From Sphingopyxis sp. MWB1 (GTDB lineage Bacteria; Pseudomonadota; Alphaproteobacteria; Sphingomonadales; Sphingomonadaceae), in contig NZ_JQFJ01000002.1 of the NCBI RefSeq assembly GCF_000763945.1, positions 868,001-932,000 of the forward strand: a stretch of DNA of 64,000 nucleotides. The letters are read 5' to 3'. A program made the position numbers and the translations under genes. Position 1 is the stretch's first letter; each line of letters opens with the position of its first letter. Shown piece after piece: positions 8,780 to 45,756 of this stretch. The notes below the pieces were generated by a model. That model saw only the letters and a list, made by a program, of their open reading frames with translations, had not been told where the DNA came from and made no database searches.

Positions 8780-8785
8780 ATCGCC

Positions 8786-10764: not shown

Positions 10765-10849
10765 CTCTTCTCTATGCTCTGCCCAAAAGCGCGGCTCGGG
10801 ACAAGGAAATCATGGCAATTACGCGCCAGAAGCGTTAGTCGCGCGTGCC

Positions 10850-11956: not shown

Positions 11957-11962
11957 TCTCTT

Positions 11963-12065
11963 CGTCACCCTGAACTTGTTTCAGGGTCCATGGTCCGCCG
12001 TCGCCTGCGACGCTGCGCCGAACGAAAGAGCAGACCATGGATGCTGAAACAAGTTCAGCATGACG
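11963..12065. repeat. 33-bp inverted repeat (REP-like element) between purM and purN
   Basis: The left arm 11963-11995 and right arm 12033-12065 are reverse complements at 29 of 33 positions, separated by 37 bases. Each arm carries CTGAAACAAGTTCAG or its complement, itself partly palindromic. In a purM-purN transcript it would fold into a long hairpin whose right arm ends 14 bases before the purN ATG. The arm sequence is the type of dispersed element that I recall as common in alphaproteobacterial intergenic regions. Confidence 0.85.
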
Positions 12066-12079
12066 ACAGGGGAGCGGTG

Positions 12080-24872: not shown

Positions 24873-24932
24873 CGGGTCACCCTCTCGCTTCATTCCGGCC
24901 ATCTTCTGCCGAGCCTTCACGCATAACGCCAA

Positions 24933-24957
24933 GGGGGCGGCCCATTGGACCGCCCCC
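24933..24957 (-). terminator. possible attenuator hairpin after the TonB receptor gene
   Basis: GGGGGCGG/CCGCCCCC, 8-bp perfect stem with a 9-base loop, between the receptor stop and the DUF885 start. No long T-run follows, so partial termination or mRNA stabilisation is more likely than a full stop. Confidence 0.45.
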
Positions 24958-24969
24958 GGCTCTCCGCCA

Positions 24970-27246
24970 TCAGAATTTATAACCGATGCTGGCCCCGAAG
25001 ACGCGGTAGGATGGTTCCACCTGCACCCCGCTGTAAAAGGCCTTTTCATAGGCATTGGCGTAATATTTCTCATCAAAGAGATTTTCGACGAAGACGACCG
25101 CGCGCAGCCGCTCATCCTCGACCCCCAGCCGCAAATTCACATTATGATAGGATGGGCTGCGGAAAGGTTCGCCCGCCACATTCTTGTAGAGATAATAATA
25201 GGGGTTCGAAATCATCGCATCGCGATAATTCCATTCCGCGCGCACAAAGGCTTCGAACTCGTCGCCAAGCGGCAGCGTATATTGGGTTTGTGCACCCAGC
25301 GTCCATTCGGGCGCATTGGTGAGCTGTTCGCCGGAAATGTCGATGACATTGCCGTCGATCAGCGCGTTGGGATATTCCTTATATTTGGATTTGTTGAAGC
25401 CGACATTGCCGCCGAGCGTCCAATGATCCGTCAGGCGCGCATCAAAGCTGGCTTCCATCCCATAGCTTTCCGCCGAGGCAGCGTTGGCGATGCCGCTGAC
25501 GCCGCGCAGCAGCCCGGTCACCGGGTCAATATATTGGAACCGGATGGTCTGCTGCACATCCTTCCAATCCATATAAAAGCCGGTGACATCGACGCGCAGG
25601 CGGCGATCGAACAGGTCGAACTTCGTCCCCAGCTCGTAATTCCACAGCGTTTCGGGCTTGAACTCATTGGTCAGCGCCGCGCTGTTGCTCGTCTGCGTGC
25701 CCCCTGATTTAAACCCGCGCGAGGCGGTCGCGAAAATCATCCAGTCGCGATTGGGCTTGTACGTCAGCGTGAACTTGGGGGAGATATCCTCAAAATCCGC
25801 GACCCGGTCATTCTCGCCCGTGATCACCGTGTTCGAGCTGGTCTGCGACACATTCGTCACTTTTTCCCACGAATAACGCAGCCCCGCTGTCGCCGACAAT
25901 TGCTCGGTGAAATTGAGCGTGCCTTGGGCAAAAATGGCGAAATAGCGGCTGGTGCTGACCCCTTCGGCGCCCGTTACCTCATATCCATCGCAATTGCCGC
26001 CCGTGCCGGCGGGGCAGAGCGGGCTGTCCGCGCCGTGGAAGGTGGTCTGGTCGCTAACGCCCTTGTCCTTGCCAAGCGAGGCGCCGAGGCTCCAATCCAG
26101 AAACTGGGTGCCGGTCGATTGAAGCCGCAACTCGCCGCTCGTGGATTCACGCCGCAGTTTCAGATCTTCATAGAAGAAGTCGCGGCTGCCGCCATCGACA
26201 TCGCCATAGTTAAAGACATCGGACGACAAATGGCCGCCCACCGCCGTCAGGGCAACAGGGCCGAAATCCCAGACAGCGCGCGTGCTGAAATATTCAAACT
26301 TGCTGCCGACGCGCTGCTTACGATTGAAGTTTACCCGCGTGTCATTCTCGGGATAAAAGCCGACGCCATCGGGATCGGCGATCAATCCTGCCGTGCCACC
26401 ATAATAAACCGACGCCCAGGTGCGCGTGACGAAGCCGGTGGGCACACCGTTGCGCATCCCCACTTCTTCATCCGAATAATTATAGGCGAAATCCCAGGTC
26501 AGATTATCGAGCGGGGTAAAGCGCGCCTGGATACGACCGGTATAATATTCGCTGTCATTCCCGCCGCCGATGGGATTGATATTCTTGATATGACCGTCGG
26601 ATTTTTCAATCTGGCCCGACGCGCGCACCGCAAGCAGGCCGCTCACCACGGGGATATTGATCACCCCTTGCGCGCGCTTCGTATCATAGCTGCTGTAGCC
26701 AAGCTCGATTTCGCCCTCAAAGGCATCGACCGGCTTTTTGGTGATGACGTTGATCGCGCCGCCGACCGCGTTGCGCCCGAAATAAGTGCCCTGGGGCCCA
26801 CGCAGCACCTCGATCCGTTCCAGATCGACAATCTGCGGATTGCTGGTGCCCGCCGCGACGTTGAATTCGTCGACATAAAAGGCGTAGCTCGACTGGCGGA
26901 CATCGGCATAGGGATTGAGCTGGTTCGAAATACCCCGGATGGCGAGATCCTTGCGGTCGCGCGAACCGTTCGACTGAAAGCTGACATTGGGAGTCAGCGC
27001 GAAATAATCGTCGACGCTCTGCACATTCTGATCTTTGATCGTCTCGGCCGTGAGCGCGGTGATGGCGATCGGTACGTCCTGCAGGCTCTGTTCCCGGCGC
27101 TGCGCAGTGACGACGATTTCGCTTCCGCCGCGGGAAGCGCCCGCCTGCTGCGCGTGGGCAGGCGCTACGATCAGCCCGGCCGCCATGGCCGCCGTCGCTA
27201 CGCCCGCGGTAAAATTGGCGCCCCTGTTCTTTTTGCATAATTTCAT
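24970..27246 (-). CDS. TonB-dependent outer-membrane receptor
   Basis: Active outer-membrane importer, 758 aa. Signal peptide to about residue 33 (AHAQ), then a TonB-box-like SEIVVTAQRREQ, a plug domain (LQDVPIAITALTAETIKDQ...RIEVLRGPQGTYFGRNAVGGAINVITKK, about residues 50-165) and a 22-strand barrel ending ASIGYKF. The start is the ATG at 27246 with GAGGGGG 8 bases upstream; a farther ATG at 27276 lacks this. The plug style is that of sphingomonad receptors for plant, aromatic or peptide substrates; no Fur box was noticed. Its neighbours (SnoaL-like gene before, DUF885 peptidase after) suggest peptide-like cargo rather than iron (inference). Confidence 0.93.
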   Translation of the reverse strand: MKLCKKNRGANFTAGVATAAMAAGLIVAPAHAQQAGASRGGSEIVVTAQRREQSLQDVPIAITALTAETIKDQNVQSVDDYFALTPNVSFQSNGSRDRKDLAIRGISNQLNPYADVRQSSYAFYVDEFNVAAGTSNPQIVDLERIEVLRGPQGTYFGRNAVGGAINVITKKPVDAFEGEIELGYSSYDTKRAQGVINIPVVSGLLAVRASGQIEKSDGHIKNINPIGGGNDSEYYTGRIQARFTPLDNLTWDFAYNYSDEEVGMRNGVPTGFVTRTWASVYYGGTAGLIADPDGVGFYPENDTRVNFNRKQRVGSKFEYFSTRAVWDFGPVALTAVGGHLSSDVFNYGDVDGGSRDFFYEDLKLRRESTSGELRLQSTGTQFLDWSLGASLGKDKGVSDQTTFHGADSPLCPAGTGGNCDGYEVTGAEGVSTSRYFAIFAQGTLNFTEQLSATAGLRYSWEKVTNVSQTSSNTVITGENDRVADFEDISPKFTLTYKPNRDWMIFATASRGFKSGGTQTSNSAALTNEFKPETLWNYELGTKFDLFDRRLRVDVTGFYMDWKDVQQTIRFQYIDPVTGLLRGVSGIANAASAESYGMEASFDARLTDHWTLGGNVGFNKSKYKEYPNALIDGNVIDISGEQLTNAPEWTLGAQTQYTLPLGDEFEAFVRAEWNYRDAMISNPYYYLYKNVAGEPFRSPSYHNVNLRLGVEDERLRAVVFVENLFDEKYYANAYEKAFYSGVQVEPSYRVFGASIGYKF

Positions 27247-27323
27247 GTCAAAACCCCCTCTGTGGCCCGGAACCATGCCCCGACCATGGTTTGTCCTCTT
27301 CCCTCGCCGTCCTAATCAGACGG

Positions 27324-27809
27324 TCATTTTGTCCAGCATTGCGGATCGAGCGGCCCCTTTGCGGGGTCGAGTTCGCTGCGAACAAGAATGATGGATGAAA
27401 TTTTGCCATGATCGAGTTCGGCATGGCCGGCGGCAAGCGAGCAGCCGAGCTGTCCGTCGCGGCGCGAACGGATCACATGATAGGTGTAGATGCGCTCGCT
27501 CTGTTCAAAAACCTGCTTGAACGGCACGACAATCTCGACATCGCCGCCGCCCGCCTGGATGCGCTGAAAGTGGGTCGCCCACTGATCGACCCCGTTGATC
27601 ACCGTCTTGCCTTCGAGAACCAGCGTGGCATCCGGGGTGAAAAAGCGCGAGAAATTATCCGCGGTGTAGGCACCCGGCGTCTTGAACGCCTCGTTCCACC
27701 AGAGGAACATTTGCGAGAGTATATCGTCGGAGGGCTGCTCCTGCGCGGCGACGGGAGCCGAAAGGCCAAGGGCTGCGACAGCACAGGCAAGCGTCAGTAA
27801 TTTTTTCAC
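27324..27809 (-). CDS. exported SnoaL-like (NTF2-fold) protein
   Basis: A 161-aa product. The start is a GTG at 27809 with GGGAG 7 bases upstream; it opens a signal peptide KKLLTLACAVAALGLSAPVAA. The rest reads as an NTF2-fold: DILSQMFLWWNEAF, FFTPDATLVLEGKTVINGVD, then a beta-rich half with YTYHVIRSRRDGQLGCSLAAGHAEL. Such proteins are small-molecule binders or isomerases; no catalytic residue can be assigned. First gene of the SnoaL-TonB-DUF885 unit. Confidence 0.7.
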   Translation of the reverse strand: MKKLLTLACAVAALGLSAPVAAQEQPSDDILSQMFLWWNEAFKTPGAYTADNFSRFFTPDATLVLEGKTVINGVDQWATHFQRIQAGGGDVEIVVPFKQVFEQSERIYTYHVIRSRRDGQLGCSLAAGHAELDHGKISSIILVRSELDPAKGPLDPQCWTK

Positions 27810-27861
27810 CAAGAGACTCCCTTTTGATATTTTGTTTCGCGGGCGGCTCTGTGACCGCTTT

Positions 27862-27903
27862 GTTGCAACCAATGTCCGTCACTTCCTTTGTTGTTGCAAC
27901 AAC
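27862..27903. promoter_or_regulatory. paired GTTGCAAC palindromes upstream of the SnoaL-TonB-DUF885 operon
   Basis: GTTGCAAC occurs at 27862-27869 and again at 27893-27900. The second is extended to a perfect 14-bp palindrome GTTGTTGCAACAAC (27890-27903). Centres are 31 bp apart, about three helical turns, and a TTGCA-N5-CGCAA dyad follows about 32 bp further. They lie 53-95 bp upstream of the SnoaL-like GTG start, a good position for an operator. Confidence 0.65.
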
Positions 27904-27921
27904 ATTACAAACGAACCTTTG

Positions 27922-27936
27922 TTGCATTGAACGCAA
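27922..27936. promoter_or_regulatory. LysR-type dyad, site A (one mismatch)
   Basis: TTGCA-TTGAA-CGCAA matches the TTGCG-N5-CGCAA dyad found at three other places in this island, with one change in the left half. It contains the T-N11-A core expected for LysR-family binding. Confidence 0.55.
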
Positions 27937-28264
27937 ACTAGAGAAAGCGTCGCGCGAGGGAGAATGAGCCTGCAAATCGGACCGCTACGGCCTTCATCTG
28001 CCCCTCTCCAAAACTTTCCCTTATTTTTCCGCTCTCTAGTTTCGTTCCGCTTGAAAGGCCGATGCACGGTCCGCCCCCGGCAGCATGAGGGGGGCCAGTC
28101 CAGACCCCGCCCGCCAAGCCCCCAGCCCTTGCGTCTTGCCTGCTTCGCTCAACGGTAAGGGGCGCCGAGAATCAGTCAATATTCATATGATTCGGGACGC
28201 TTGATAGAGGTGGAGCCATTCAGGGGAGAAGCTTGCTTCCACCATTTCGCGCTGAGCATATGAA

Positions 28265-28292
28265 AAAGGGGCGCCCCTCGGGACGCCCCTTT
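28265..28292 (-). terminator. intrinsic terminator after the amidohydrolase gene
   Basis: On the minus strand, AAAGGGGCG pairs with CGCCCCTTT in a perfect 9-bp stem, and the transcript continues in TTTTTCAT. It lies about 80 bases beyond the amidohydrolase stop. Confidence 0.75.
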
Positions 28293-28373
28293 CAAGAGAG
28301 CCGCATCGTTAACGGCCGAAGGAAATGATCGCGGCTCCCTTTCGTGCGAGAGTCCGCGTCGATGCGTTTCTTC

Positions 28374-29681
28374 CTAGCGCGTTATGGTTTCAGGATGACT
28401 GTCGTTGCGATAGATCGCCCCGCCCTTCATCACGAAATCGAGCGTGCGCAGCGCCGAAATGTCGGCAAGAGGATTGGCCGATACCGCAACGATGTCGGCA
28501 TAATATCCCGGCACCACACGACCCACCTGCTTGTCGAGCGCCATCATCCTTGCGGGCTGGATCGTCGCCGCCTGCAACGCCTGAAGCGGAGTCATGCCGG
28601 CTTTTTGATAGAGCTCGGCTTCATGCACCGTGGCGGTGGTGCCGCTGTTTGGCTCGAAAGGGAATTGGTCGGTGCCAAGCGCGACGTTAACGCCCATTTT
28701 GATCGCCTTTTGCAGCACGGCCCAATGATCCTGGCCTGTCGAGGCGACCCGTTCCAGATACCATTCGGGTGAACCGATCTTGCGATAAAATTCATGGGCG
28801 CCCTGCTGGCTGACGACGATGGTGGGGACGAGCCACGTGCCCTGCGCCTTCATCTTGGCCAGCACTTCGTCATTCAGATGATAGCCATGCTCGAAACAGT
28901 CGATCCCGAATTTCAGCGCCTGCATCGCGGCTTCGGACGAGCCATTATGCGCGGTCACTTTCACCCCGTTGCGATGCGCGACCTCCAGCACGGTCGACAA
29001 TTCCGCATCGGTCATCGGCGCGGCAGAGATGGCGCCATGCGTATCCGAAATCCCGCCCGATATGGCGATCTTGATCCAGCTTGCTCCGCGCTTTATCTGT
29101 TCGCGCACCACCTTGCTGAATTCTGCGGGGCCATCCGCCTCCAGGGAGCCATGCCCGCCGGTGGGGACGATCAATTCGCCTGCCGATTCGATCCGGGGTC
29201 CGACCGCCTGCCCCTTTGCAATGGCGCGCTTCAGCATGAAATCCAGCCCGCGATCCTCCGCCGTCAGGCGAACGGTGGTCACCCCGGCGAGCAGCGAGCG
29301 GCGCGCATTTTCGGCCATCCGCAATATCTGCTCGCCATCTTTCTCGTTGATCAGTTCGGCCCCGGCAGCACCGGGAAGCTTGAGCCCGAAATGAACGTGC
29401 ATGTTCATCAGGCCGGGGATCAGCCATTTGCCCTCCATGGGCACACGGGTCGCATCGGCGGGAACCGCCACCGAAGCGGCAGGCCCAGCCGCGACAATAT
29501 GTTCGCCGCGCACCAGCACCACGGCATTGGGCACGGTGGCGCCCGTGTCGATATTGACCAAGGTGCCGCCGACCAGCGCGGTCGTGGCGGCGCCATCGAC
29601 CGTCTGCGCGGCCGCCGTGGTCGTGAATAAAAATGCCATTGCGGCGGCGAATACGCGCCTTGTCAGCGATGCTGTCATCAT
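28374..29681 (-). CDS. exported metal-dependent amidohydrolase (imidazolonepropionase/prolidase-like)
   Basis: A 435-aa amidohydrolase-superfamily enzyme with a signal peptide (MMTASLTRRVFAAAMAFLF...AAAQ). The first metal-binding motif is HVHFG after GLMNM (about residue 85), with KIAISGGISD, VTAHNGSSEAA and LGTDQFPFEPNSGT carrying later ligands and the catalytic aspartate. The VGRVVPGYYADIV C-terminus is typical. Relatives cleave Xaa-Pro, Xaa-Arg/Lys or N-acyl amino acids, so a dipeptidase role is plausible; substrate not proven. The start at 29681 is supported by GGGAAAGG. Divergent from the second DUF885 gene, sharing a control region with a LysR dyad. Confidence 0.87.
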   Translation of the reverse strand: MMTASLTRRVFAAAMAFLFTTTAAAQTVDGAATTALVGGTLVNIDTGATVPNAVVLVRGEHIVAAGPAASVAVPADATRVPMEGKWLIPGLMNMHVHFGLKLPGAAGAELINEKDGEQILRMAENARRSLLAGVTTVRLTAEDRGLDFMLKRAIAKGQAVGPRIESAGELIVPTGGHGSLEADGPAEFSKVVREQIKRGASWIKIAISGGISDTHGAISAAPMTDAELSTVLEVAHRNGVKVTAHNGSSEAAMQALKFGIDCFEHGYHLNDEVLAKMKAQGTWLVPTIVVSQQGAHEFYRKIGSPEWYLERVASTGQDHWAVLQKAIKMGVNVALGTDQFPFEPNSGTTATVHEAELYQKAGMTPLQALQAATIQPARMMALDKQVGRVVPGYYADIVAVSANPLADISALRTLDFVMKGGAIYRNDSHPETITR

Positions 29682-29756
29682 GTGCCTTTCCCTGATTGCT
29701 GGCCCCAGACTGCGGCAATGGACGGATAAAACAATGCAGTAGTGCCGTGAAGTTTG

Positions 29757-29771
29757 TTGCGTTCGTCGCAA
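29757..29771. promoter_or_regulatory. LysR-type dyad, site B
   Basis: TTGCG-TTCGT-CGCAA, extended to GTTGCG...CGCAAC (29756-29772), in the divergent gap between the amidohydrolase (starts 29681) and the second DUF885 gene (starts 29937). Identical half-sites occur at 34441-34455 and 38300-38314. A second small inverted pair GCAAAATTGC lies next to it (29780-29789). Confidence 0.72.
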
Positions 29772-29936
29772 CACAAACCGCAAAATTGCTACAATATAAG
29801 CAATGAAAATGACGGATTCGTGCGAATTTGGTGCGACGGCGTTGTATTATCGTGCCCGCGCCCGCTTTGCCTGCCCTGTTGCATTCTGTCGATATCGCGA
29901 CACGATAAAGTCATAAACCAGTCCAGCGGGGGCGGA

Positions 29937-31763
29937 ATGACGGACGGACACCATCAGGGGGCAATCTCACGGCGCAGCGCTATGGGTATGTTGGGGGCCG
30001 GCAGCCTTATTGCCTGGCCCGCCACGACCCGCGCCGCTCTTTCGTCGGCGGACGCCCGACAGGCGCTCTATGCCTTGCTCAAACAAAGCGCCGCTCAGGA
30101 CGCCGCGCTTGATCCCCTGCGCGCCGCCCGGCGAGGCGGCGGCGCGGCAAGCGCCCCGCTTTTCGTCGATCCGCTGGGCGAGGAATATGCTCGCGCGCTG
30201 CAGTCGGGCAAGGAAGGGGAGCTCGGCGCGCTCGCGCGGATCGACCGCGACGCGCTCACCGCCATCGACCGCATTGCTTATGATGTGCTCCATTATAAGG
30301 CGCGCCAGACGCTCGACCTTTTCGACAGCGGCCTCTTCGCCGTTCAGCGCCGGGCCGCGCTCAATCCCTCTTTCGGATTGCATGTCGAATTTCCCGACTT
30401 TCTGTCGAGCGGCGCGGCGCCCTTTGAAACGGTGGGGGATTATCGCGATGCGCTGACGCGCATGACCGGTTTTGCCGATCATATGGTCATGACCATCACG
30501 CGGCTGCGCGAAGGTTTGGCGAGCGGGCACGTTCAGCCGCGCATCGTCGTGGACAATATACTGGCACAAGTCGATGCGATGCTGGCGCTGCGGACGGAGG
30601 ACAGCCCCTTTTGGGCCGGGGTCAATCGCATTCCGGACAGCTTTTCGCCCGCCGATGTGCAGTGGATCAAAACATCCTTTCGCACCATGGTCGAGGAACG
30701 CCTTTATCCGGCCTATCGCAGCTGGGCCGATTTTCTGCGGCAGGAATATTATCCTCACGCCACCGACGCGCCGGGGCTGTGGGCGATGAAGGATGGCGAC
30801 GCCCTTTATGGCTGGGCTCTGGCGCGGCACACCACCACCCGCCGCAGCGCCGAGGACATCCATGCGCTGGGCCTGCAGGAAGTGGCCCGGATTCGGAGCG
30901 AGATGGAGCGCGTCAAGGGCGAGACCGGCTTTTCAGGCGATCTCAAGGCGTTCTTCGACTTTATTCGCACCGATCCCAGATTTTACTATCGCACGCCGGA
31001 GGAATTGCTGGCGCGCTTCAAGGCGATTGAAGCGAAAATCTGGCCCGCGATTCCGCGCCTGTTTCATGACCGCCCGCGCGCGCCGTTCGAAGTGCGGCCG
31101 CTGCCCGCACTGGGGGATCAGCGCGGCACCGGCTATTATCGCCCCGGCCCGCCCGATGGCGTGTCCCCCGGCATCCTCTTCTTCAACATGTCGATGCTGG
31201 ACACCCGCCCGATCCCGACGCTGGAAACGCTCACCCTGCACGAAGGGATTCCGGGGCATCATTTCCAGCTCACCCTGGCCATCGAAAATGAGGATCTGCC
31301 CGACCTGCTGCGCCATGGGCAGGCCACCGCCTATTCCGAAGGCTGGGGGCTTTATGCCGAATCCCTCGGCCCCGAACTGGGGCTGTTCACCGACCCCTTC
31401 CAGATGTTCGGCCATCTCGACATGGAAATGCTGCGCGCCATCAGGCTGGTCGTCGATACCGGCCTACACGCCAAGCAGTGGAGCCGCGAACGCGCGATTG
31501 ACTATATGCTGGACAACAGTTCGATGGCGCGGCGCGACGTGGTGGTCGAAATTGACCGCTATATTGCTTATCCGGGGCAGGCCTGCGCCTACAAGCTGGG
31601 CGAACTCAAGATAAAGGAATTGCGCGAGCGTGCCCGCGCCAGCCTGGGCGCGGCGTTCGATATCCGCGACTATCATCGCCAGGTGCTGAACAGCGGCGCG
31701 CTGCCGCTCGACGTGCTGGAGGCGAAAATCGACGCCTGGATTGCCGCTGGCGGCGGTGCCTGA
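29937..31763 (+). CDS. DUF885 family periplasmic metallopeptidase-like protein, second copy
   Basis: A 608-aa protein with a Tat-type signal peptide (SRRSAMGMLGAGSLIAWPA). It carries the zinc-peptidase-like TLHEGIPGHHFQLTL (about residue 435) and AYSEGWGLYAESLG, the same residues as the copy at 23064-24872, but the two are clearly diverged over the rest. The ATG at 29937 has GCGGGGGCGG just upstream; an upstream in-frame ATG at 29754 lies in the control region and adds no recognisable sequence. First gene of a unit with the DUF3311/symporter pair, which suggests that it releases the imported compound. Confidence 0.87.
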   Translation: MTDGHHQGAISRRSAMGMLGAGSLIAWPATTRAALSSADARQALYALLKQSAAQDAALDPLRAARRGGGAASAPLFVDPLGEEYARALQSGKEGELGALARIDRDALTAIDRIAYDVLHYKARQTLDLFDSGLFAVQRRAALNPSFGLHVEFPDFLSSGAAPFETVGDYRDALTRMTGFADHMVMTITRLREGLASGHVQPRIVVDNILAQVDAMLALRTEDSPFWAGVNRIPDSFSPADVQWIKTSFRTMVEERLYPAYRSWADFLRQEYYPHATDAPGLWAMKDGDALYGWALARHTTTRRSAEDIHALGLQEVARIRSEMERVKGETGFSGDLKAFFDFIRTDPRFYYRTPEELLARFKAIEAKIWPAIPRLFHDRPRAPFEVRPLPALGDQRGTGYYRPGPPDGVSPGILFFNMSMLDTRPIPTLETLTLHEGIPGHHFQLTLAIENEDLPDLLRHGQATAYSEGWGLYAESLGPELGLFTDPFQMFGHLDMEMLRAIRLVVDTGLHAKQWSRERAIDYMLDNSSMARRDVVVEIDRYIAYPGQACAYKLGELKIKELRERARASLGAAFDIRDYHRQVLNSGALPLDVLEAKIDAWIAAGGGA

Positions 31764-31793
31764 CATGCCCCTTCCCTCCTGCAAGGACATTGG

Positions 31794-32045
31794 ATGACTT
31801 CGCAAAGTTCGCCCGTATCGCGGCGCCACCGGTGGTTGCTGCTCATTCCCTTTCTATGGCAGATCGGCGGTGTTCCGCTCGTCAATGATGTCGCGTGGCG
31901 TCCCTTCTCGCTGCCCTTTCCGATGGCCTGGCAAATGGCGGGGATCATCGTGACATCGGTCGTTATCGCCTATATTTTCTCCATTGATCGCAAGCATCCG
32001 GAATTTCCCGACACCAAAGCACCCGCCGAGGGAGTCGAGCAATGA
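31794..32045 (+). CDS. DUF3311 small membrane protein, symporter partner
   Basis: An 83-aa protein with two hydrophobic helices (RWLLLIPFLWQIGGVPLV and WQMAGIIVTSVVIAYIF). DUF3311 proteins are usually encoded directly before a sodium:solute symporter, as here: the ATGA at 32042-32045 is shared stop and start. Likely an accessory subunit of that transporter. Confidence 0.85.
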   Translation: MTSQSSPVSRRHRWLLLIPFLWQIGGVPLVNDVAWRPFSLPFPMAWQMAGIIVTSVVIAYIFSIDRKHPEFPDTKAPAEGVEQ

Positions 32046-33496
32046 TTCTGGCGCTTACTCTCGCTGTCGTGCTCGGCACCATGGTCGGCGCGCTTTTATC
32101 GGCGCGCCGACAAGCGCGCGCTACCAGCATGACCGAATGGGCGGTCGGCGGACGCCGCTTTGGCATTTTAATCTTCTGGTTCCTCAATGCCGGGGAAATT
32201 TACACGACCTTCGCGGTATTGGGCATTTCGGGCTTTGCATGGGCGCATGGCGCCCCGGCCTACCTGGCCTTCACCTCCGTCTCGCTGTCCGCCGCCATCG
32301 GCTATTGGCTGATGCCCTGCATCTGGAATGCCGGGCGGCAATATGGGCTGGTGACGCAAGCCGATTTTTTCGCCGCCCATTATCGCGCGACATGGCTGGG
32401 CGTCGTCGTTGGGGTCGCAGGAATTGCGGCGTTGATCGTCTATGTCCAGATCCAGATCGTCGCGCTCAGCCTGATCCTGCGCATGACCGTGGGGCCGGAG
32501 ATATCCGTATCGGCGGCGGCCATATTGGCGGCAGCGATCATGCTGGCCTTTGTCTATATCTCGGGCCTGCGTTCGGCCGCCTTTGCCGCCGGGGTCAAGG
32601 ATGTGCTGATGGTGCTGATCGTCGTCGGTTTGTGCCTCACCGTTGCCTCCAAGGTTGGCGCGGCCTCGATGCTCGACGTTTATCGCATGGCGCAGGACCA
32701 GTTTCCCGGCATCGGCCGCTTGCCCGGATTACAGCCGGGCGCCGGGCTTTCGACCATCTGGCTGATGACCGCCGCACTGAACGTCGCGCTGGGGAACTGG
32801 ATCTTGCCGCATTTGTTCCAGCTCTGTTTTTCGGCGGGAAGCGAAGCGACAATCCGCCGCAACGCCATTTGGCAGCCGATCTATTCGCTGTCCTATTTTT
32901 TCATCATCCTCCTGGGCTTTGCCGCCCTGCTTGCGGGGACGCAGCCCGAAGGGGGCGACACCAATGCCGTCCTGTTGCAATTTGTTTCCGACCGCTATCC
33001 CGCCTGGGCCGTCGGAATTTTTGCGGGAACCGCCTGTTTGCTGGCGCTGGTGCCGGGATCGGTGCTCCTGCTGACCGCAGGATCGATCTTCAGCCGCAAC
33101 ATCCTGCTTCCGCTGCGCCCCACCTTGTCGGACCGGCAGAGCCTGCTCGCCTCGCGCCTGTCGATGATCGCCTTTGCGGCCATTGCCGTATGGCTGACGC
33201 TGGGCGGATCGCGTTCGCTGGTGGAGATCGGCCTGTCGGCCTATGCCGCCATCGGCATGTTGGCGCCGGGCGTCTATTTCGCCTTCATCTGGAAGCGCGC
33301 CCATGCCGCGGGCATTTTCGCCGGCATTGTCGCGGGCTATCTGGCGCTGCTTCTGCCGCAGGCGCAGCAGCTTTGGGACCATATGCTGCCCCACTGGGAC
33401 CATGGGCTCGTGGCGATGATGGTCAATGCCGCCGTCGCAGCGCTCGTCTGCCTCGCGACCACCCGTCCCGCCCGTCCAGCCGTCCAGGCCGCCTGA
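32042..33496 (+). CDS. sodium:solute symporter (SSS family)
   Basis: A 484-aa inner-membrane transporter with about 13 hydrophobic helices. The opening (TEWAVGGRRFGILIFWFLNAGEIYTTFA) is the SSS signature region before helix 2, and LVPGSVLLLTAGSIFSRNI matches the conserved helix 8-9 segment. Family members import amino acids, sugars, carboxylates or pantothenate with sodium; specificity cannot be read here. Translationally coupled to the DUF3311 gene, downstream of the DUF885 peptidase, and convergent with the LysR gene. Confidence 0.92.
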   Translation: MILALTLAVVLGTMVGALLSARRQARATSMTEWAVGGRRFGILIFWFLNAGEIYTTFAVLGISGFAWAHGAPAYLAFTSVSLSAAIGYWLMPCIWNAGRQYGLVTQADFFAAHYRATWLGVVVGVAGIAALIVYVQIQIVALSLILRMTVGPEISVSAAAILAAAIMLAFVYISGLRSAAFAAGVKDVLMVLIVVGLCLTVASKVGAASMLDVYRMAQDQFPGIGRLPGLQPGAGLSTIWLMTAALNVALGNWILPHLFQLCFSAGSEATIRRNAIWQPIYSLSYFFIILLGFAALLAGTQPEGGDTNAVLLQFVSDRYPAWAVGIFAGTACLLALVPGSVLLLTAGSIFSRNILLPLRPTLSDRQSLLASRLSMIAFAAIAVWLTLGGSRSLVEIGLSAYAAIGMLAPGVYFAFIWKRAHAAGIFAGIVAGYLALLLPQAQQLWDHMLPHWDHGLVAMMVNAAVAALVCLATTRPARPAVQAA

Positions 33497-33502
33497 CGCC
33501 GA

Positions 33503-34399
33503 TCAGGCCCAGCTTTTGAGCTTCGCTTCCAGCAGGCTCATCAGACGGGCCGGGGCACCCTCCAGCTGTCGGCCCAGCCGGTGGATCAGGCTGACCGTGC
33601 TATGTTCAATGGCATCGTCGAGCAGGGGCCGCGCGACCAGGCTCCCCTCCTCCAGTTCGGCCAGCGCCGAAATGCGCGGCAATACGGTGAGCGCGCGGCC
33701 CGCTTTCGCGATTTCGCGCATCATCTGGATGGAGGTCGTCACGAGCCGGGGTTCCAGCCAGACCTGCGCGCGCCGCTCGGCATGGTTGAGCGTGCCGCGA
33801 ATGCGAAAGCCCGGGGGCGGCAGACAGAGGTCGAAACGCGCCAGATCGGCAATGGTCAGCGCCTCCATCTCCGCTGCGGGGTGCGAAGGCGCGCACAGGA
33901 TCAGCAAGGGCTGCGCCACCGCGCTGCGCGTGCGTATCTTGGGCTCGCTGGTGGTGTGGAGGATCATGCCGATATGCGCTTCATCGTCGAGCACCATGCG
34001 GATGATATCGGCGGTAGGACTGCTCGTCACCGTAATGGCGATGCCGGGATTGCGCCGCTGAAACCCCTCGATCAGGGCGGTGAAAGGCGGGCCGAAAAAG
34101 CCCTCGCCAATCGCCAGATCGACGCGCCCGCTCTTTACCTCGCGCAATTCCTGAATGCGCGTCATCAAGGCTTCGCGGTCGGCAAGCTGGTTCTTGTGAT
34201 ATTCAAAGGCGAGTTGCCCCGCCTCGGTCAGCCGGATCGAGCGGCGCCCCCTTTCAATGAGCGCAATGCCCATTTCGGCCTCCAACTGCGCGATCTGCCG
34301 GCTGATCGAGGAAACGGCGACCCCGATTTTGTCGCTGGCAAGCCGCATCGAACCCAGATTGGCGGCTTCGTAAAAATATTGCAGTGCATTGTCCCACAT
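33503..34399 (-). CDS. LysR-family transcriptional regulator of the catabolic island
   Basis: A 298-aa regulator. The N-terminal winged helix-turn-helix (ALQYFYEAANLGSMRLASDKIGVAVSSISRQI, residues about 4-36) is followed by the linker helix and a periplasmic-binding-like effector domain (RVDLAIGEGFFGPPFTALIEG onward). The ATG at 34399 is chosen: GAGGGGAGAG lies just upstream and the HTH then begins at the normal distance, whereas a farther ATG adds a spurious leader. Divergent from the dapA-like operon, with a TTGCG-N5-CGCAA dyad in the gap, the classic autoregulated LysR layout. The same dyad at other promoters suggests that it controls the whole 23-39 kb island (inference). Confidence 0.92.
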   Translation of the reverse strand: MWDNALQYFYEAANLGSMRLASDKIGVAVSSISRQIAQLEAEMGIALIERGRRSIRLTEAGQLAFEYHKNQLADREALMTRIQELREVKSGRVDLAIGEGFFGPPFTALIEGFQRRNPGIAITVTSSPTADIIRMVLDDEAHIGMILHTTSEPKIRTRSAVAQPLLILCAPSHPAAEMEALTIADLARFDLCLPPPGFRIRGTLNHAERRAQVWLEPRLVTTSIQMMREIAKAGRALTVLPRISALAELEEGSLVARPLLDDAIEHSTVSLIHRLGRQLEGAPARLMSLLEAKLKSWA

Positions 34400-34439
34400 G
34401 GGCGTCGCTCTCCCCTCACTGCCGAGCAGAATGGCGAGT

Positions 34440-34456
34440 GTTGCGAAAATCGCAAC
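34440..34456. promoter_or_regulatory. LysR-type dyad, site C (LysR/dapA divergent promoter)
   Basis: GTTGCG-AAAAT-CGCAAC, a perfect 6+6 dyad with AT-rich spacer and a T-N11-A core. It is centred 49 bp upstream of the LysR start and about 103 bp upstream of the dapA-like start. Most probable primary binding site of the divergently encoded LysR protein. Confidence 0.78.
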
Positions 34457-34550
34457 TAATTTCGTCTTTTGATGCCCTTGCCGCGAATGCACCTTGGCTT
34501 ATCGGGACAGGCCGCACTGCCAAAATCCTGTCCAAGGGGGAGCCAAGTTG

Positions 34551-35471
34551 ATGAACAAGCGAACGCGCGCCGAATGGAAAGGCTATATTCCGGCCATTAC
34601 GACGCCCTTCGACGCCGATCGCGCGCTGGACCTGTCTGCCCTTGGGCGTCTCCTCGAATGGCTGCACAGCGAAGGCATGCACGGGCTGTTGCTGGCCGGG
34701 ACGACGGGTGAATGGCCCGGCATGTCGAACGATGAGCGCAAGGCGCTGTTTTCAGCCGCAGGCAACCAGCTCAAGGGAAAGATCCCGCTGCTTGCCGGGT
34801 GCAACGCCTATACGGCGCATCAGGTGCTCGCCCTCGCCGATCATGCCGCCGACAGCGGATTCGACGGCATTGTCGTCACCCCGCCGCCCTATTACCGGCC
34901 CTCGCCCGACGAGATACATGGATTTTACGCTGAAATATCGGCGGGGTCGCGCCTTCCCATCTGCGTTTACAACTGGCCGCCAGGCACGGGCATCGACATG
35001 CCGCTCGCCCTGCTGGAGCGCCTCGCCGCGCTCGACAATGTCGTTGCGATCAAACAATCGACCAGCGATTTGCGCCGCTTTGTCGACACTTTCTTTGCGC
35101 TGAAAGAGAAGGTGCTGATTTTCGGCCATTCGATGGACGAACATGGGCTGGCGCTGCTCGAAGCGCGCGGCGGCGACGGGACGATGGGCGCAGGTGCTGT
35201 GCTGGGCCGCACCCACCCCGATTTTTACAATCATCTGTGGAAGGGCGATATCGCCGCCGCGCGCGAATGCGGGCGCCGCGACCGGGTGATCCTCGATCAA
35301 TGGTATACGCCCGAACTGGTCGGCCGTTTCGGCTCGGGGCCCGCCATATTGAAGGCCGCGCTGAACGTGCAGGGCCTGCCCGGCGGCCACGTCCGCCCAC
35401 CCTTGCGCGACGTATCGCGTGAAGATGTCGAGAAAATCAGGGAGACATTGGTGTCGCTGGGGCGCATCTAG
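34551..35471 (+). CDS. DapA-family lyase/deaminase
   Basis: A 306-aa class I (Schiff-base) TIM-barrel enzyme. Signature GTTGE at residues 50-54, tyrosine in VYNWPPGTG (Tyr140) and Schiff-base lysine in VVAIKQSTSD (Lys168). Unlikely to be the lysine-biosynthesis DapA: it sits in a LysR-controlled catabolic operon with an amino-acid dehydrogenase. Known alternatives in such settings are pyrroline-4-hydroxy-2-carboxylate deaminase (hydroxyproline pathway), N-acetylneuraminate lyase-like or KDG aldolase-type enzymes. The deaminase fits the neighbouring genes best, but this is inference. The ATG at 34551 follows AAGGGGGAG. Confidence 0.87.
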   Translation: MNKRTRAEWKGYIPAITTPFDADRALDLSALGRLLEWLHSEGMHGLLLAGTTGEWPGMSNDERKALFSAAGNQLKGKIPLLAGCNAYTAHQVLALADHAADSGFDGIVVTPPPYYRPSPDEIHGFYAEISAGSRLPICVYNWPPGTGIDMPLALLERLAALDNVVAIKQSTSDLRRFVDTFFALKEKVLIFGHSMDEHGLALLEARGGDGTMGAGAVLGRTHPDFYNHLWKGDIAAARECGRRDRVILDQWYTPELVGRFGSGPAILKAALNVQGLPGGHVRPPLRDVSREDVEKIRETLVSLGRI

Positions 35472-35476
35472 CGAAT

Positions 35477-36652
35477 ATGGACAAGCGGGATGTCGCGATT
35501 ATCGGCGGGGGGCTGATCGGCTGCGCAAGCGCCTGGCACCTCGCGCGGCAGGGGGCGTCGGTCACCTTGCTCGAAGCCGGAGACGTCAACAGCGGCGCCT
35601 CCGGGCAAAATGCCGGGTCGCTGCATTTTCAGATTGAACGCCGTTTTCTGGAAAATGGCGATGCGCTTGCACGGCAGGCCGCCGCGATCGTTGCGCTCAA
35701 CCGGGCAGCGGTAACCGACTGGCGCGGCATCGAAAAAGCGCTGCCAGACGATCTGCACCTTTCCATGAAGGGCGGGCTGATGGTCGCCGAAACCCCGCAA
35801 GAGGTGGCCCTGCTCGAACGCAAGGCGGCGTGGGAACAGGCGCAGGGACTTTCCGTCCAAACGCTCGACGGGGCCGAGGCGCGGGACATCGCGCCCTATT
35901 TGTCCCCCTCCATCCTCGCCGCCAATTTCGCCCTCGACGAAGGCCATGCCGACCCGCGCGCGCTCACCCCGGCGCTGGCCGCCGCCGCGCGCGCCGAAGG
36001 GGCGGAGATCCGCACCCATGCGCGGGTTGAGCACATCGCGCGGAGCGGCGGCCGCTTTATCGTGCAGGGGCCCGACCTGCGGGTCACGGCGGATCAGTTG
36101 CTGGTCGCCGGCGGGGCATGGAGCGCCAACATATGCGCGCGCGCCAATATCCACATGCCGCTTTACCCGGTCGCCTTGCTGATGAATGCGACCGAGCGCA
36201 CGTCTCCGTTGCTTCCCCATCTGATCCAGCATGTCGGGCGGCGCCTGTCGTTGAAACAGACCTATGCCGGCAATATATTGATTGGCGGCGGCTGGCCCTC
36301 GCGGCTGGCGCAGGCGCCCGATGGCGGCTTTGATCTTGATGCCAGACCCGAAATCATCGCCGCCTCGCTCCGCGCCAATGTCAAAACCGCCATCGACGTC
36401 ATCCCCGTCCTGTCGCGCCTGAATCTGCTGCGCAGTTGGACCGGGGTCACCGCCATTTCCGCCGACCAATTGCCTATCGTGGGCGAAGTGCCGCGCCTCC
36501 CGGGCCTATGGGTTGCGGCAGGCGGCTCGGCCTTTACGCTGGGCCTGACCTTTGCGCGCCTGCTGGCCGGGGCCATGACCGGAAAGCCGTCGCCGGAACT
36601 CGATATCCTGTCCCCGGCTCGGTTCGAACATCTGAACGGATTTATGGGATGA
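35477..36652 (+). CDS. D-amino-acid oxidase-like FAD subunit (HcnC/LhpB type)
   Basis: A 391-aa FAD-dependent oxidoreductase of the DAO fold. N-terminal dinucleotide motif VAIIGGGLIGCASAWHLARQG, then SGASGQNAGSLH and a C-terminal GLWVAAGGSAFTLGLTFAR flavin-contact block. With the next two genes it forms the beta subunit of a three-part dehydrogenase like the hydrogen-cyanide synthase, opine oxidase and D-hydroxyproline dehydrogenase complexes: it would oxidise a secondary or D-amino acid to an imine and pass electrons to the other subunits. It starts 5 bases after the dapA-like stop, and its TGA overlaps the next ATG (ATGA). Confidence 0.9.
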   Translation: MDKRDVAIIGGGLIGCASAWHLARQGASVTLLEAGDVNSGASGQNAGSLHFQIERRFLENGDALARQAAAIVALNRAAVTDWRGIEKALPDDLHLSMKGGLMVAETPQEVALLERKAAWEQAQGLSVQTLDGAEARDIAPYLSPSILAANFALDEGHADPRALTPALAAAARAEGAEIRTHARVEHIARSGGRFIVQGPDLRVTADQLLVAGGAWSANICARANIHMPLYPVALLMNATERTSPLLPHLIQHVGRRLSLKQTYAGNILIGGGWPSRLAQAPDGGFDLDARPEIIAASLRANVKTAIDVIPVLSRLNLLRSWTGVTAISADQLPIVGEVPRLPGLWVAAGGSAFTLGLTFARLLAGAMTGKPSPELDILSPARFEHLNGFMG

Positions 36653-36933
36653 AAGCGCGCCGCATCACCTCTGGCACCCGCCGGGGCCCGAAAATCTCCA
36701 TTCGCGTCGATGGCGAAGCCATCGCCTGTCATGCCGGCGAAACCGTCGCGGCAGCCATGCTCGCTGCCGGGATGAGCCGCTTTCGGCGGGACCGGGCCGG
36801 GACGGCGCGGGGGCTGCTTTGCAACATGGGGGTGTGCAGCGAATGCCATGTCACCTTGGGCGCGACCGGACGCCGGGTCCGCGCCTGCCTGATCGAGGTA
36901 ACCGACGGACTGGATATTCGCCGCGATGACTGA
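36649..36933 (+). CDS. [2Fe-2S] ferredoxin-like subunit (HcnA/LhpE type)
   Basis: A 94-aa electron-transfer subunit. Four cysteines at 58, 63, 66 and 80 (LLCNMGVCSECHV ... RACLIEV) give the C-x4-C-x2-C-x13-C pattern of Fer2_4 proteins. It overlaps the DAO-like gene by 4 bases and the following reductase gene by 8 bases. Stoichiometric production of the three subunits is therefore likely. Too short to have its own enzymatic function. Confidence 0.9.
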   Translation: MKARRITSGTRRGPKISIRVDGEAIACHAGETVAAAMLAAGMSRFRRDRAGTARGLLCNMGVCSECHVTLGATGRRVRACLIEVTDGLDIRRDD

Positions 36934-38308
36934 AGAGCAGCGCTTCGATCTGCTGATCATCGGCGGCGGGCCGGCGGGACAAGCGGCCGCGCTGACGCTC
37001 AGCGGACGCGGATTGCGGATCGGCGTCCTCGACGAACAACCGCGCCCCGGCGGCCAGATTTTGCGCCAGCCGCCGCCGGAATTCCGTGTCGAAAACTGGC
37101 TCCCCGACCCCGGTTATGATCCGCTCAAGCGGCAGCTTGCCGATTTTGAAGGCTGTGACGACATAGAATGGCTGGGCGGCCATTCGGTCGTGGGTCTTCA
37201 GCCCAACTCGCTGCTGGCAGACGGTCCGGATGGGCTGCGGCAACTGGCCGCCCCGGCCATATTGATCGCGACCGGGGCGCAGGATCTGGCGGTGCCCCTC
37301 CCCGGCTGGACCCGGCCGGGGGTCTATTCCGCCGGCGCGATCCAGGCCTTTATCAAAAGCCAGCAATTGCTCACGGGCGAGCGCATAATGCTGGCCGGGA
37401 CACATCCTTTGCAACTGGTGATCGCGCGGCAGGTTGTCGCGGCGGGCGGCACGGTCGCGGGGGTCTTTTTCGCCCAGCCGCGCGAACAGATGCGCCGGAT
37501 GCTCCTGCGCCGCCCGCTGACGGCCTTGTCCCGCCTCTCCGATCTCTTGACCGCCCGCAAAGCCGAGCGGGAGCTACAGAAAGCGGGCGTACCGCTTCAT
37601 TATGGGGTGGGACTCCATGCCTTTGAAGGAAGCGGGGATGGCGACCATCTGGGCGCGGCTCTGACCGGCAAGGGGCGCGTCGAATGCGACGCCGCCGGGC
37701 TGTGCTTTGGCTTTGTGCCCCAATCGGCGCTGCCGCGCATGGCGGGGGCCGCGATGCGCCCTGCCGGTCCGGCGGGCGGCTGGGCGGTCATTCATGATGA
37801 CTGGATGCGCACCAGTCTTCGCGGCCTTTATGCCGCGGGCGAAGCGGTCGGTGTGGCGGGTGCGGAGGCGGCGGCGGCAGGCGGCGCGCTCGCGGGCCTT
37901 GGCATAGCGCGCGACCTTGGCCTGATCACGCCGGTCGAGGCGGAACAAGCCGCGCAGAAAGCGCGCAAGGCCTTGGCCCGGCACCGCGCCTTTGCCGCCT
38001 TGCTGGACGCCATATCGGACCCGCGCCGCTATTTCCCGGCCATGGAGGACGATACGCTGGTCTGTCGCTGCGAGGATATCGACCGTCAGACCATCGACGC
38101 CGCGCTGACCGGATGCGGATCAGCCAACAGCGTAAAGCTTTTTACCCGCTGCGGAATGGGGGCCTGTCAGGGGCGTAATTGCGAACCGACGCTGCTGCGC
38201 TTGCTGGAGGCTGCGGGAAAAAGGGGCGATGGCGGGTTTACCGCGCGCTTTCCGGCCCGCCCCCTTCCCCTGGCGACGCTTGCGGCAGACGATTCATCCT
38301 TGCGATAA
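36926..38308 (+). CDS. NAD(P)/FAD-dependent oxidoreductase subunit with C-terminal 2Fe-2S site (HcnB/LhpF type)
   Basis: A 460-aa alpha subunit of the same dehydrogenase. N-terminal FAD motif LLIIGGGPAGQAAALTLSGRG with PGGQILRQ, second dinucleotide region around RIMLAGTHPLQLVIARQVV, and late flavin block GLYAAGEAVGVAGAEAA. A BFD-like iron-sulfur tail carries VCRCEDID and CGMGACQGRNCEP (four cysteines). The stop at 38308 lies inside a LysR-type dyad (38300-38314) that precedes the VOC gene. Confidence 0.9.
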   Translation: MTEEQRFDLLIIGGGPAGQAAALTLSGRGLRIGVLDEQPRPGGQILRQPPPEFRVENWLPDPGYDPLKRQLADFEGCDDIEWLGGHSVVGLQPNSLLADGPDGLRQLAAPAILIATGAQDLAVPLPGWTRPGVYSAGAIQAFIKSQQLLTGERIMLAGTHPLQLVIARQVVAAGGTVAGVFFAQPREQMRRMLLRRPLTALSRLSDLLTARKAERELQKAGVPLHYGVGLHAFEGSGDGDHLGAALTGKGRVECDAAGLCFGFVPQSALPRMAGAAMRPAGPAGGWAVIHDDWMRTSLRGLYAAGEAVGVAGAEAAAAGGALAGLGIARDLGLITPVEAEQAAQKARKALARHRAFAALLDAISDPRRYFPAMEDDTLVCRCEDIDRQTIDAALTGCGSANSVKLFTRCGMGACQGRNCEPTLLRLLEAAGKRGDGGFTARFPARPLPLATLAADDSSLR

Positions 38309-38314
38309 ACGCAA
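38300..38314. promoter_or_regulatory. LysR-type dyad, site D
   Basis: TTGCG-ATAAA-CGCAA, same half-sites as sites B and C, overlapping the last codons of the alpha-subunit gene and 76-90 bp upstream of the VOC start. A further TTGCG half-site stands at 38332-38336. Confidence 0.7.
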
Positions 38315-38366
38315 CGACCTTCCCATGACCCTTGCGTTGCGACGGCGCGGGGGGCGGGTCACTATG

Positions 38367-38381
38367 CCTTGCATCGCAAGG
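38367..38381 (+). promoter_or_regulatory. palindrome covering the VOC ribosome-binding site
   Basis: CCTTGC-ATC-GCAAGG is a perfect 6-bp stem. Its right arm contains the AAGG of the AAGGAG ribosome site (38378-38383) before the ATG at 38390. It could act as a further regulator half-site pair (TTGC-N3-GCAA) in DNA or as a small RNA hairpin limiting initiation. Confidence 0.45.
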
Positions 38382-38389
38382 AGAAGATA

Positions 38390-38878
38390 ATGAACGCAGC
38401 GCCTGAAAAGCCCCGTTTCCTGTCGGTCGATCATATTTCATGGACCGTGCCTGATCTCGACGAGGCGGTTGCTTTTTACCGCGATGTGCTGGGGGCCGAG
38501 GAATTGTTCCGCATGGGCCCGCTCGACGCCGCCGACATGCCGCGCGATGATCAGGGGCGTGACTGGATGGAAACCCATGTCGGGGTCGCCGGGGCGCGGC
38601 TGACTTTGGTGATGATGAAGCTCAGCGACAATATGAATTTCCAGCTTGTCCAATATGACAAGCCCGATGATCGCGCCCAGACCCTGCCCCGCAATTGTGA
38701 TCGCGGCGGGCATCATCTGGGGCTGAAGGTCGATGATGTCGACAAGGCCATCGCCTATCTGGAAGCCCATGGCTGCCGCGCGCTGGAGGTGATCCATATC
38801 GACGCGGGGCCGCTCGCCGGAAAGAAGAATGTCTATGTGCTGGACCCTTTCGGGCACCAGCTCGAAATCGTCGACTGA
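38390..38878 (+). CDS. VOC-family (glyoxalase/dioxygenase fold) protein
   Basis: A 162-aa protein with the vicinal-oxygen-chelate fold: two beta-alpha-beta-beta-beta modules, opening FLSVDHISWTVPDLDEAVAFYRDVLG and repeating with GGHHLGLKVDDVDKAIAYLEAHG. Metal ligands are probably the His in VDHISW, the His in GGHHLGLK and the late glutamate in GHQLEIVD. The reaction is unknown: lyase, isomerase or dioxygenase of a small acid. Start fixed by AAGGAG 6 bases upstream. Paired with the RidA gene 30 bp downstream. Confidence 0.85.
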   Translation: MNAAPEKPRFLSVDHISWTVPDLDEAVAFYRDVLGAEELFRMGPLDAADMPRDDQGRDWMETHVGVAGARLTLVMMKLSDNMNFQLVQYDKPDDRAQTLPRNCDRGGHHLGLKVDDVDKAIAYLEAHGCRALEVIHIDAGPLAGKKNVYVLDPFGHQLEIVD

Positions 38879-38908
38879 ACAGATTGAAGAACAAAGGGAG
38901 CAAGCCGC

Positions 38909-39313
38909 ATGACCAATCGCCGGATCAACCCCGCCGCGCTTTATGACGCGCTGGGCTATGGATTTTCGCACGCTGCGATCCACCAGAGCGGACATATTCT
39001 GCAGCTCGCGGGCCAGGTGGCCTGGGACAAGGATTGCAATGTCGTGGGGGCGGGCGATGTCGCTGCGCAAACCCGGCAGGCACTTGCCAATCTTTCCGCC
39101 GTTCTCGCCGAAGCGGGGGCCACGCCCGCCGATGTCGTGCGGCTACGCACCTATGTCGTCGATCATCACCCCGACAAGCTGGGACCGATATTGGGAGAGA
39201 TTGCGGCCTTCTATTGCGATGCGGTGCCCGCTCCGAACAGCTTCATCGGCGTTCAGGCGCTCGCGCTTCCCGATTTCCTGGTGGAAATAGAGGCAACAGC
39301 AGCGCTTCCCTGA
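38909..39313 (+). CDS. RidA-family (YjgF/YER057c) imine/enamine deaminase
   Basis: A 134-aa protein that would speed hydrolysis of reactive imines or enamines to keto acids. Family blocks are LQLAGQVAWDKDCNVVG, QALANLSAVLAEAGATPADVVRLRTYV (with the conserved arginine) and the end FLVEIEATAALP. A RidA next to an amino-acid dehydrogenase that produces imines makes direct biochemical sense. AAGGGAG lies upstream of the ATG at 38909. Confidence 0.9.
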   Translation: MTNRRINPAALYDALGYGFSHAAIHQSGHILQLAGQVAWDKDCNVVGAGDVAAQTRQALANLSAVLAEAGATPADVVRLRTYVVDHHPDKLGPILGEIAAFYCDAVPAPNSFIGVQALALPDFLVEIEATAALP

Positions 39314-39347: not shown

Positions 39348-39375
39348 GCCCCGTCGCTTTCCCGAGCGGCGGGGC
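39348..39375 (+). terminator. probable terminator after the RidA gene
   Basis: GCCCCGTCGCT pairs with AGCGGCGGGGC (11 bp with one G-T pair) around a 6-base loop, followed by the short GTTTC. It lies 35 bp after the RidA stop and before the opposing tRNA gene. Confidence 0.55.
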
Positions 39376-39404: not shown

Positions 39405-39480
39405 TGGTGCCTGGGGACGGGATCGAACCGCCGACACTGCGATTTTCAGTCGCATGCTCTACCAACTGAGCTACCCAGGC
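39405..39480 (-). tRNA. tRNA-Phe (GAA)
   Basis: A 76-nt cloverleaf on the minus strand. Acceptor GCCTGGG/CCCAGGC plus A and encoded CCA, D-arm GCTCAGTTGGTAGAGC, anticodon stem TGCGA/TCGCA with loop CTGAAAA (anticodon GAA), and T-arm GGCGGTTCGATCCCGTC. All arms pair. Stands alone between the RidA gene and yacG. Confidence 0.97.
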
Positions 39481-43778: not shown

Positions 43779-43848
43779 TTTAGCCGCCAAGCGTTAAAAA
43801 CGCGTGGCGTTCAAACGGCAAAGGAAGCGCGGAGGAATAGCTCACCCT

Positions 43849-45744: not shown

Positions 45745-45756
45745 ATATCTGCGCGC

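Follow-up and report, generated by a model that had tools for sequence, protein, structure and literature searches.

LysR-type regulators share a general binding scheme (PMC4617489), and in its usual form, as set out for IlvY, a symmetric regulatory site is accompanied by a weaker site on the promoter side (PMC5002191). For MmsR of P. denitrificans (PMC6441110) and HpdR of P. putida (PMC5431877), both activators of the LysR family, a symmetric site and a weaker one on the promoter side are likewise described. Here we examine a 64,000-nucleotide stretch of Sphingopyxis sp. MWB1 (contig NZ_JQFJ01000002.1, positions 868,001 to 932,000; hereafter the window), in which a catabolic island encodes a LysR-type regulator and carries an inverted repeat (the dyad, with core TTGC-N7-GCAA) before four units, here called DapA-like, amidohydrolase, SnoaL-like and VOC. 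By sequence comparison the dyad and a TTG triplet starting 30 bp from its centre mark the predicted promoters of these units, and the four dyads are very probably the main component of a bipartite operator serving the island-encoded regulator.

IlvY at ilvY-ilvC also recognizes a 15-bp inverted repeat with a TTGC-N7-GCAA core (PMC5002191), and its gene is, like the island LysR, divergent from its target, with several sites in the divergent gap. The two systems differ in the usual fifth base of the repeat (mostly G/C in the island and its relatives, A/T for IlvY) and in extent (four promoters over 16 kb in the island, one gap for IlvY). The island LysR scores 59.8 bits against an IlvY family cut-off of 246, and no ilvC-type gene is present among the examined island genes. 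The MmsR site, AATGTGCAA-N15-TTGCACATC, and the HpdR site, GCCCCTGTGC-n6-GCACAGCGGC, as reported, are unlike TTGC-N7-GCAA, the comparison being one of sites and not of proteins. The island LysR has recognizable HTH_1 (61.5 bits, cut-off 26.6) and substrate-binding (117.6 bits, cut-off 28) domains, and a dyad with the T-N11-A signature lies in the gap between its gene and the divergent DapA-like target.

A palindromic core before four island units

The sequence-only reading had proposed perfect copies of TTGCG-N5-CGCAA at three gene gaps (29757, 34441 and 38300) and a one-mismatch copy at 27922, all containing T-N11-A and together spanning about 16 kb of genes; the sites are present as stated, T-N11-A occurs in all four, and the genes extend from 23064 to 39313. 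The window contains no further perfect copies, and three were reached in none of 100 dinucleotide shuffles (mean 0.30). Tolerating one mismatch gives six window matches against a shuffle mean of 7.4, so that the 27922 copy is not significant within the window by itself. As the looser TTGC-N7-GCAA, with five window copies (shuffle mean 2.3), is found at least five times in 8 of 100 shuffles, significance rests on the strict form and on other genomes. A search of the whole genome (3,118,428 bases), which the same reading had suggested, returned 12 perfect dyads compared to 4 for a reversed-pattern control, three of the 12 falling inside 8.6 kb of the island (binomial 4e-6, calculated post hoc), and 78 copies of TTGC-N7-GCAA compared to 28 for the control. 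Among the non-island genomic sites with loci examined, 19 of 23 lie inside an open frame of at least 100 codons, a crude criterion in that two of the three perfect island sites also lie inside such a frame. The oxidoreductase gene upstream of the 38300 dyad ends inside it, with its stop codon (TAA) at 38306-38308.

A search with the island LysR covered 298 genomes of the family and gave a match at E <= 1e-60 in 22 of them, the own genome included. Neighbourhoods of up to 40 kb were collected around 23 LysR copies in the 21 other genomes, and 20 of these carry the island; the remaining three (G286, the first of G057 and the second of G289) were omitted from a first set of 350-bp windows, 66 in all, taken upstream of DapA-like, DUF885b, SnoaL-like and VOC genes. 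A scan of every 4-base half-site with spacers of 0 to 14 (3,840 half-site/spacer combinations) ranked TTGC-N7-GCAA highest, with occurrences in 60 of the 66 homologous promoter windows of these 20 related clusters (DapA-like 20/20, DUF885b 13/13, SnoaL-like 10/13, VOC 17/20). The runners-up (30 and 19 windows) are the same palindrome offset by one base, the best unrelated combination reaches 17, and single-base shuffles of the 66 windows contain the core in a mean of 0.25 windows. A second set drawn from named genomes, from which twelve loci whose contigs belong to genomes already in use, matches covering <70% of the query and windows of <200 bases were omitted, gave 26/27, 10/12, 7/7 and 16/21 for the same classes (59/67 in total). 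By comparison, the core occurs in 209 of 12,981 random 250-bp windows of named loci, which may themselves contain other island promoters. Where gene order is rearranged, the dyads remain with their own genes.

The sequence-only reading named a lack of conservation before orthologous genes as grounds for its refutation; it withstood this test, though with a shorter core than originally proposed. Perfect 5-base arms are present in just 28 of the 66 relatives' windows and were rejected as too narrow a definition; the conserved core is TTGC-N7-GCAA, usually flanked by G and C next to the arms. Across 123 sites the fifth base is G 86 times and A 25 times. A profile built from the relatives only and run over both strands of the window places the four island sites at ranks 1 to 4 (27922, 39.2 bits; 34441, 38.8; 29757, 36.0; 38300, 34.0), followed by 20.8 bits for the 29757 dyad in the opposite reading and then 13.8. 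The best score belongs to the "one-mismatch" 27922 site.

A one-sided second element and the island regulator

We anchored all dyad promoters on the dyad centre, 119 of 123 having enough sequence (the window's four included; SnoaL-like 15/18 and amidohydrolase direction 23/24 usable). In 106 of the 119 a TTG begins precisely 30 bp away from the centre, to one side of it (DapA-like 40/47, amidohydrolase 22/23, SnoaL-like 15/15, VOC 29/34), which matches the weaker, phase-fixed site that LysR-type operators have on the promoter side. Other TTG offsets average 4.7%, the best of them (+24, 27 promoters) being confined to the DapA-like class, and on the opposite side of the dyad no TTG offset exceeds 3 in any class. 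The one-sidedness of the triplet gives each dyad a direction, and the 29757 site is on this account read as the amidohydrolase operator: all 14 composites of dyad plus TTG at this locus point to the amidohydrolase, and one of the 14 also points the other way. The DUF885b-DUF3311-symporter unit on the other side is an uncertain target and only a possible member of the regulon. A looser repeat, TTGC-N10-GCAA, lies between the 29757 dyad and DUF885b (29786-29803) and might serve that unit.

The 40-base composite occurs six times in the own genome, four times at the island promoters, compared to none for the reversed control; one of the other two is inside a 206-codon open frame and one overlaps an open-frame start. 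Twenty LysR-bearing relatives (G286 omitted) have 104 composites compared to 23 control occurrences, 61 of the 104 being within the fetched neighbourhoods, where 57 face an island gene within 500 bp. Three non-island composites (G095 C1:1214563, G001 C5:111325 and G011 C12:702299) share TTGC-N7-GCAATTGACG, perhaps reflecting another conserved promoter.

Sequence comparison ties the dyad to the regulator more closely than to any of the target genes. In a comparison of 23 DUF885b loci at >=57% identity (partial matches in G159 and G056 yielded no locus), the dyad precedes the gene in all 14 genomes that have an island LysR and in none of the 7 that lack a LysR match. Two more copies without a dyad are in genomes with a LysR match and no linked island, G286, where LysR is ~13 kb from DUF885b, and G140, where the distance is ~1.5 Mb. 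Among 79 named loci, 20 of the 21 LysR copies at >=60% identity also have a dyad no more than 250 bp before the gene, and in three of the more diverged loci (L145, L147 and L149, 45-60% identity) LysR has moved beside the symporter with the site still before the DapA-like gene. From this co-conservation we infer that the island LysR would bind all four sites. Of the single LysR regulon put forward initially, the operator shared by four promoters, its conservation and its tracking of LysR hold; the 5-base arms give way to the shorter core and the DUF885b-DUF3311-symporter unit is at most an uncertain member. In the proposed mechanism one LysR dimer would occupy the dyad as the regulatory binding site and a second the +30 half-site as the activator binding site, which lies some three helical turns further on and faces the same way. 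The paired dimers would bend the DNA, and a pathway compound would shift the second dimer to give activation; binding in the LysR/DapA-like gap may also keep LysR expression low.

Several observations weigh against this assignment. The dyad is absent from 6 of 66 and 8 of 67 promoter windows. Four of the former six come from G001 and G246, whose SnoaL-like and VOC genes lie within a merged same-strand run, and the SnoaL-like gene of G217 may also be inside a merged unit; the VOC gene of G021 has neither dyad nor such an explanation. The binomial probability is post hoc and related species are non-independent samples, so that we claim no overall p-value. Composites occur outside islands (43 of 104 in relatives, 2 of 6 in the own genome), and 20 genomes without a LysR match have 32 compared to 12 control occurrences, three of them in G005 near its 52% identical DapA-like gene, which stands beside two of them. 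The dyad is upstream of LysR in only 9 of 18 copies at 45-60% and 26 of 40 below 45% identity, and close copies without it include that of G286 (L142, 54%). Lastly, four sigma-70-like promoters were found in the region, none beside any dyad. LysR paralogues L141-L144 and L152 (53-54% identity) have no dyad upstream, and L141 and L142 adjoin diverged DAO/Fer2/Pyr_redox genes.

Searches of titles and abstracts, with subscription journals mostly outside their coverage, showed no paper on this regulon among the matches listed, and in text searches no paper contained the motif strings as written or combined DUF885, LysR and regulon. Conserved LysR regulons as such are familiar; as far as these searches go, the operator, the exact spacing and the membership are new. 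The site would supply a precise operator for a LysR subfamily without one described in the literature searched and delimit the genes that many sphingomonads run as one catabolic programme. Such clusters should be easier to find and read with the 40-base signature, and the inducer could be screened using one reporter. The constancy of the 30-bp offset across four dissimilar promoters also offers a clean natural data set on the spacing of LysR tetramers on DNA.

Pathway substrate and alternative regulators

Domain content suggests that the regulated genes may form an uptake-cleavage-oxidation-lyase system for a peptide-bound amino compound, in which the TonB receptor would import peptide-like material, the amidohydrolase and DUF885 proteins would cleave it, the three-part flavoenzyme would oxidize the freed amino compound, RidA would clear the imine, and the DapA-like and VOC proteins would split the product. 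Comparison with solved structures for substrate clues gave only general DapA-family and amidohydrolase relatives.

One candidate substrate is hydroxyproline, with the island as its degradation cluster and the regulator responding to it. The DAO/Fer2/Pyr_redox set resembles the alpha-beta-gamma D-hydroxyproline and opine dehydrogenases, and the island is similar to L-hydroxyproline clusters in having both this flavoenzyme and a DapA-like protein (PMC5144071 and PMC4575208); in addition, the amidohydrolase is close to Xaa-Pro dipeptidases, albeit under that family's cut-off. The DAO, Fer2 and Pyr_redox/BFD subunits are not specific for hydroxyproline, however, and in contrast to the described clusters the island has no epimerase. 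The sole match of the genome to the proline-racemase family PF05544, called as a 4-hydroxyproline epimerase (560 bits, cut-off 376), is ~0.3 Mb from the island in a separate cluster with a semialdehyde-type dehydrogenase, a pyrroline-carboxylate reductase and its own DapA-like protein, which is 32% identical to that of the island. No TTGC-N7-GCAA was found across 20 kb around this cluster. With the epimerase cluster elsewhere in the genome, hydroxyproline is not supported as the island substrate, and we regard this explanation as unlikely.

Less probable still is that the operators are real and serve a regulator from outside the island, such as an IlvY-like protein, with the island LysR a bystander. 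The core is the same as that of the IlvY inverted repeat, TTGCA-n5-TGCAA (PMC5002191). Against this, the island encodes no IlvY by the family score given above (IlvY elsewhere in the genome was not searched), the dyad is missing before DUF885b orthologues in the seven genomes without LysR, and it follows the LysR gene into Pseudomonas and Cobetia, where the neighbours are different. In these distant relatives (~38% identity) the dyad is 35-60 bp upstream of LysR, and no other island gene was seen around LysR at these loci. At the two loci whose genes were examined (L174 and L175) LysR stands near genes for a 3-hydroxyisobutyrate-dehydrogenase-like protein, a peptidase and an aldehyde dehydrogenase; the dehydrogenase targets of MmsR and HpdR (PMC6441110 and PMC5431877) resemble the dehydrogenases found there. 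TTG is at +29 or +30 in 21 of 26 dyad-bearing loci of the <45% group, many of which are Pseudomonas sequences nearly identical to one another. Only a one-off form of the dyad is present in eight of nine Methylobacterium loci, and several LysR paralogues are without any dyad. A broader reading, which we find plausible but somewhat short of probable, is that the LysR subfamily recognizes a rigid bipartite address, TTGC-N7-GCAA with TTG at +29/+30, that has been retained from sphingomonads to Pseudomonas and Cobetia and in the latter two precedes unrelated genes. In sphingomonads the subfamily would then control an undescribed pathway for peptide-bound non-standard amino compounds (import, cleavage, oxidation and splitting by the DapA-like lyase) in response to an inducer hitherto unreported for LysR-type proteins. 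The inducer of the Pseudomonas and Cobetia relatives (L172-L192) could hint at that of the island LysR.

Chance clustering of GC-rich TTGCG-type palindromes without function would fit the abundance of the core in the genome and the window shuffles, but is ruled out for practical purposes by the 60/66, 59/67 and 106/119 counts, the retention of the dyad before the same units even where clusters are rearranged, the constant position of the +30 element and the four of six genomic composites in the island.

Gene content and genomic setting

Features of the island, annotated with Pfam and NCBIfam, are given in Table 1. The SnoaL-like protein, a label taken from the sequence-only reading, has no Pfam match at 1e-3.

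Table 1. Operator elements, genes and predicted units of the island (window positions unless stated).
Feature	Position	Strand	Remark
Dyad TTGCGTTCAATGCAA	27922-27936	-	Putative operator of SnoaL-like/TonB/DUF885a unit; read on minus strand
TTG +30, inside GTTGTTGCAACAAC (27890-27903)	27897-27899	-	SnoaL-like unit
Dyad TTGCGACGAACGCAA	29757-29771	-	Read towards amidohydrolase
TTG +30	29732-29734	-	Amidohydrolase side
Dyad TTGCGAAAATCGCAA	34441-34455	+	LysR/DapA-like divergent gap
TTG +30	34478-34480	+	DapA-like side
Dyad TTGCGATAAACGCAA	38300-38314	+	Before VOC-RidA; overlaps upstream gene's stop codon
TTG +30	38337-38339	+	Before VOC
LysR-type regulator (HTH_1 + LysR_substrate)	33503-34399	-	Likely binder
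Unit DapA-like/DAO/Fer2_4/Pyr_redox-BFD	34551-38308	+	Predicted target
DapA-like	34551-35471	+	
DAO	35477-36652	+	
Fer2_4	36649-36933	+	
Pyr_redox/BFD	36926-38308	+	
Unit VOC + RidA	38390-39313	+	Predicted target
VOC protein	38390-38878	+	
RidA-family protein	38909-39313	+	
Terminator-like hairpin	39348-39375		After VOC-RidA unit
Amidohydrolase, Xaa-Pro-dipeptidase-like	28374-29681	-	Predicted target
Unit SnoaL-like + TonB receptor + DUF885a	23064-27809	-	Predicted target
SnoaL-like	27324-27809	-	
DUF885b + DUF3311 + MctP-like symporter	29937-33496	+	Uncertain regulon member
DUF3311	31794-32045	+	
MctP-like symporter	32042-33496	+	Under cut-off, no Pfam match
Separate hydroxyproline cluster	8268-12831 of locus L200 (own genome C2, ~1.210-1.215 Mb)		

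The island lies between a ksgA-like gene (22185-23042) and a tRNA-Phe gene (39405-39480). LysR, DapA-like and VOC genes co-occur, 21 genomes being common to the 22, 22 and 23 that carry each, but none of the six same-genus genomes of the sample has any of the three, indicative of a patchy spread of the island. A clean empty site was not found, ksgA not being within 20 kb in the six same-genus genomes examined, and two plasmid neighbourhoods examined were uninformative. At seven same-genus loci similarity to the window begins at tRNA-Phe. Further along, the window encodes cupin-like, acetyltransferase, asparagine-synthase and exosortase genes (41710-47274), which look like a polysaccharide/exosortase region.

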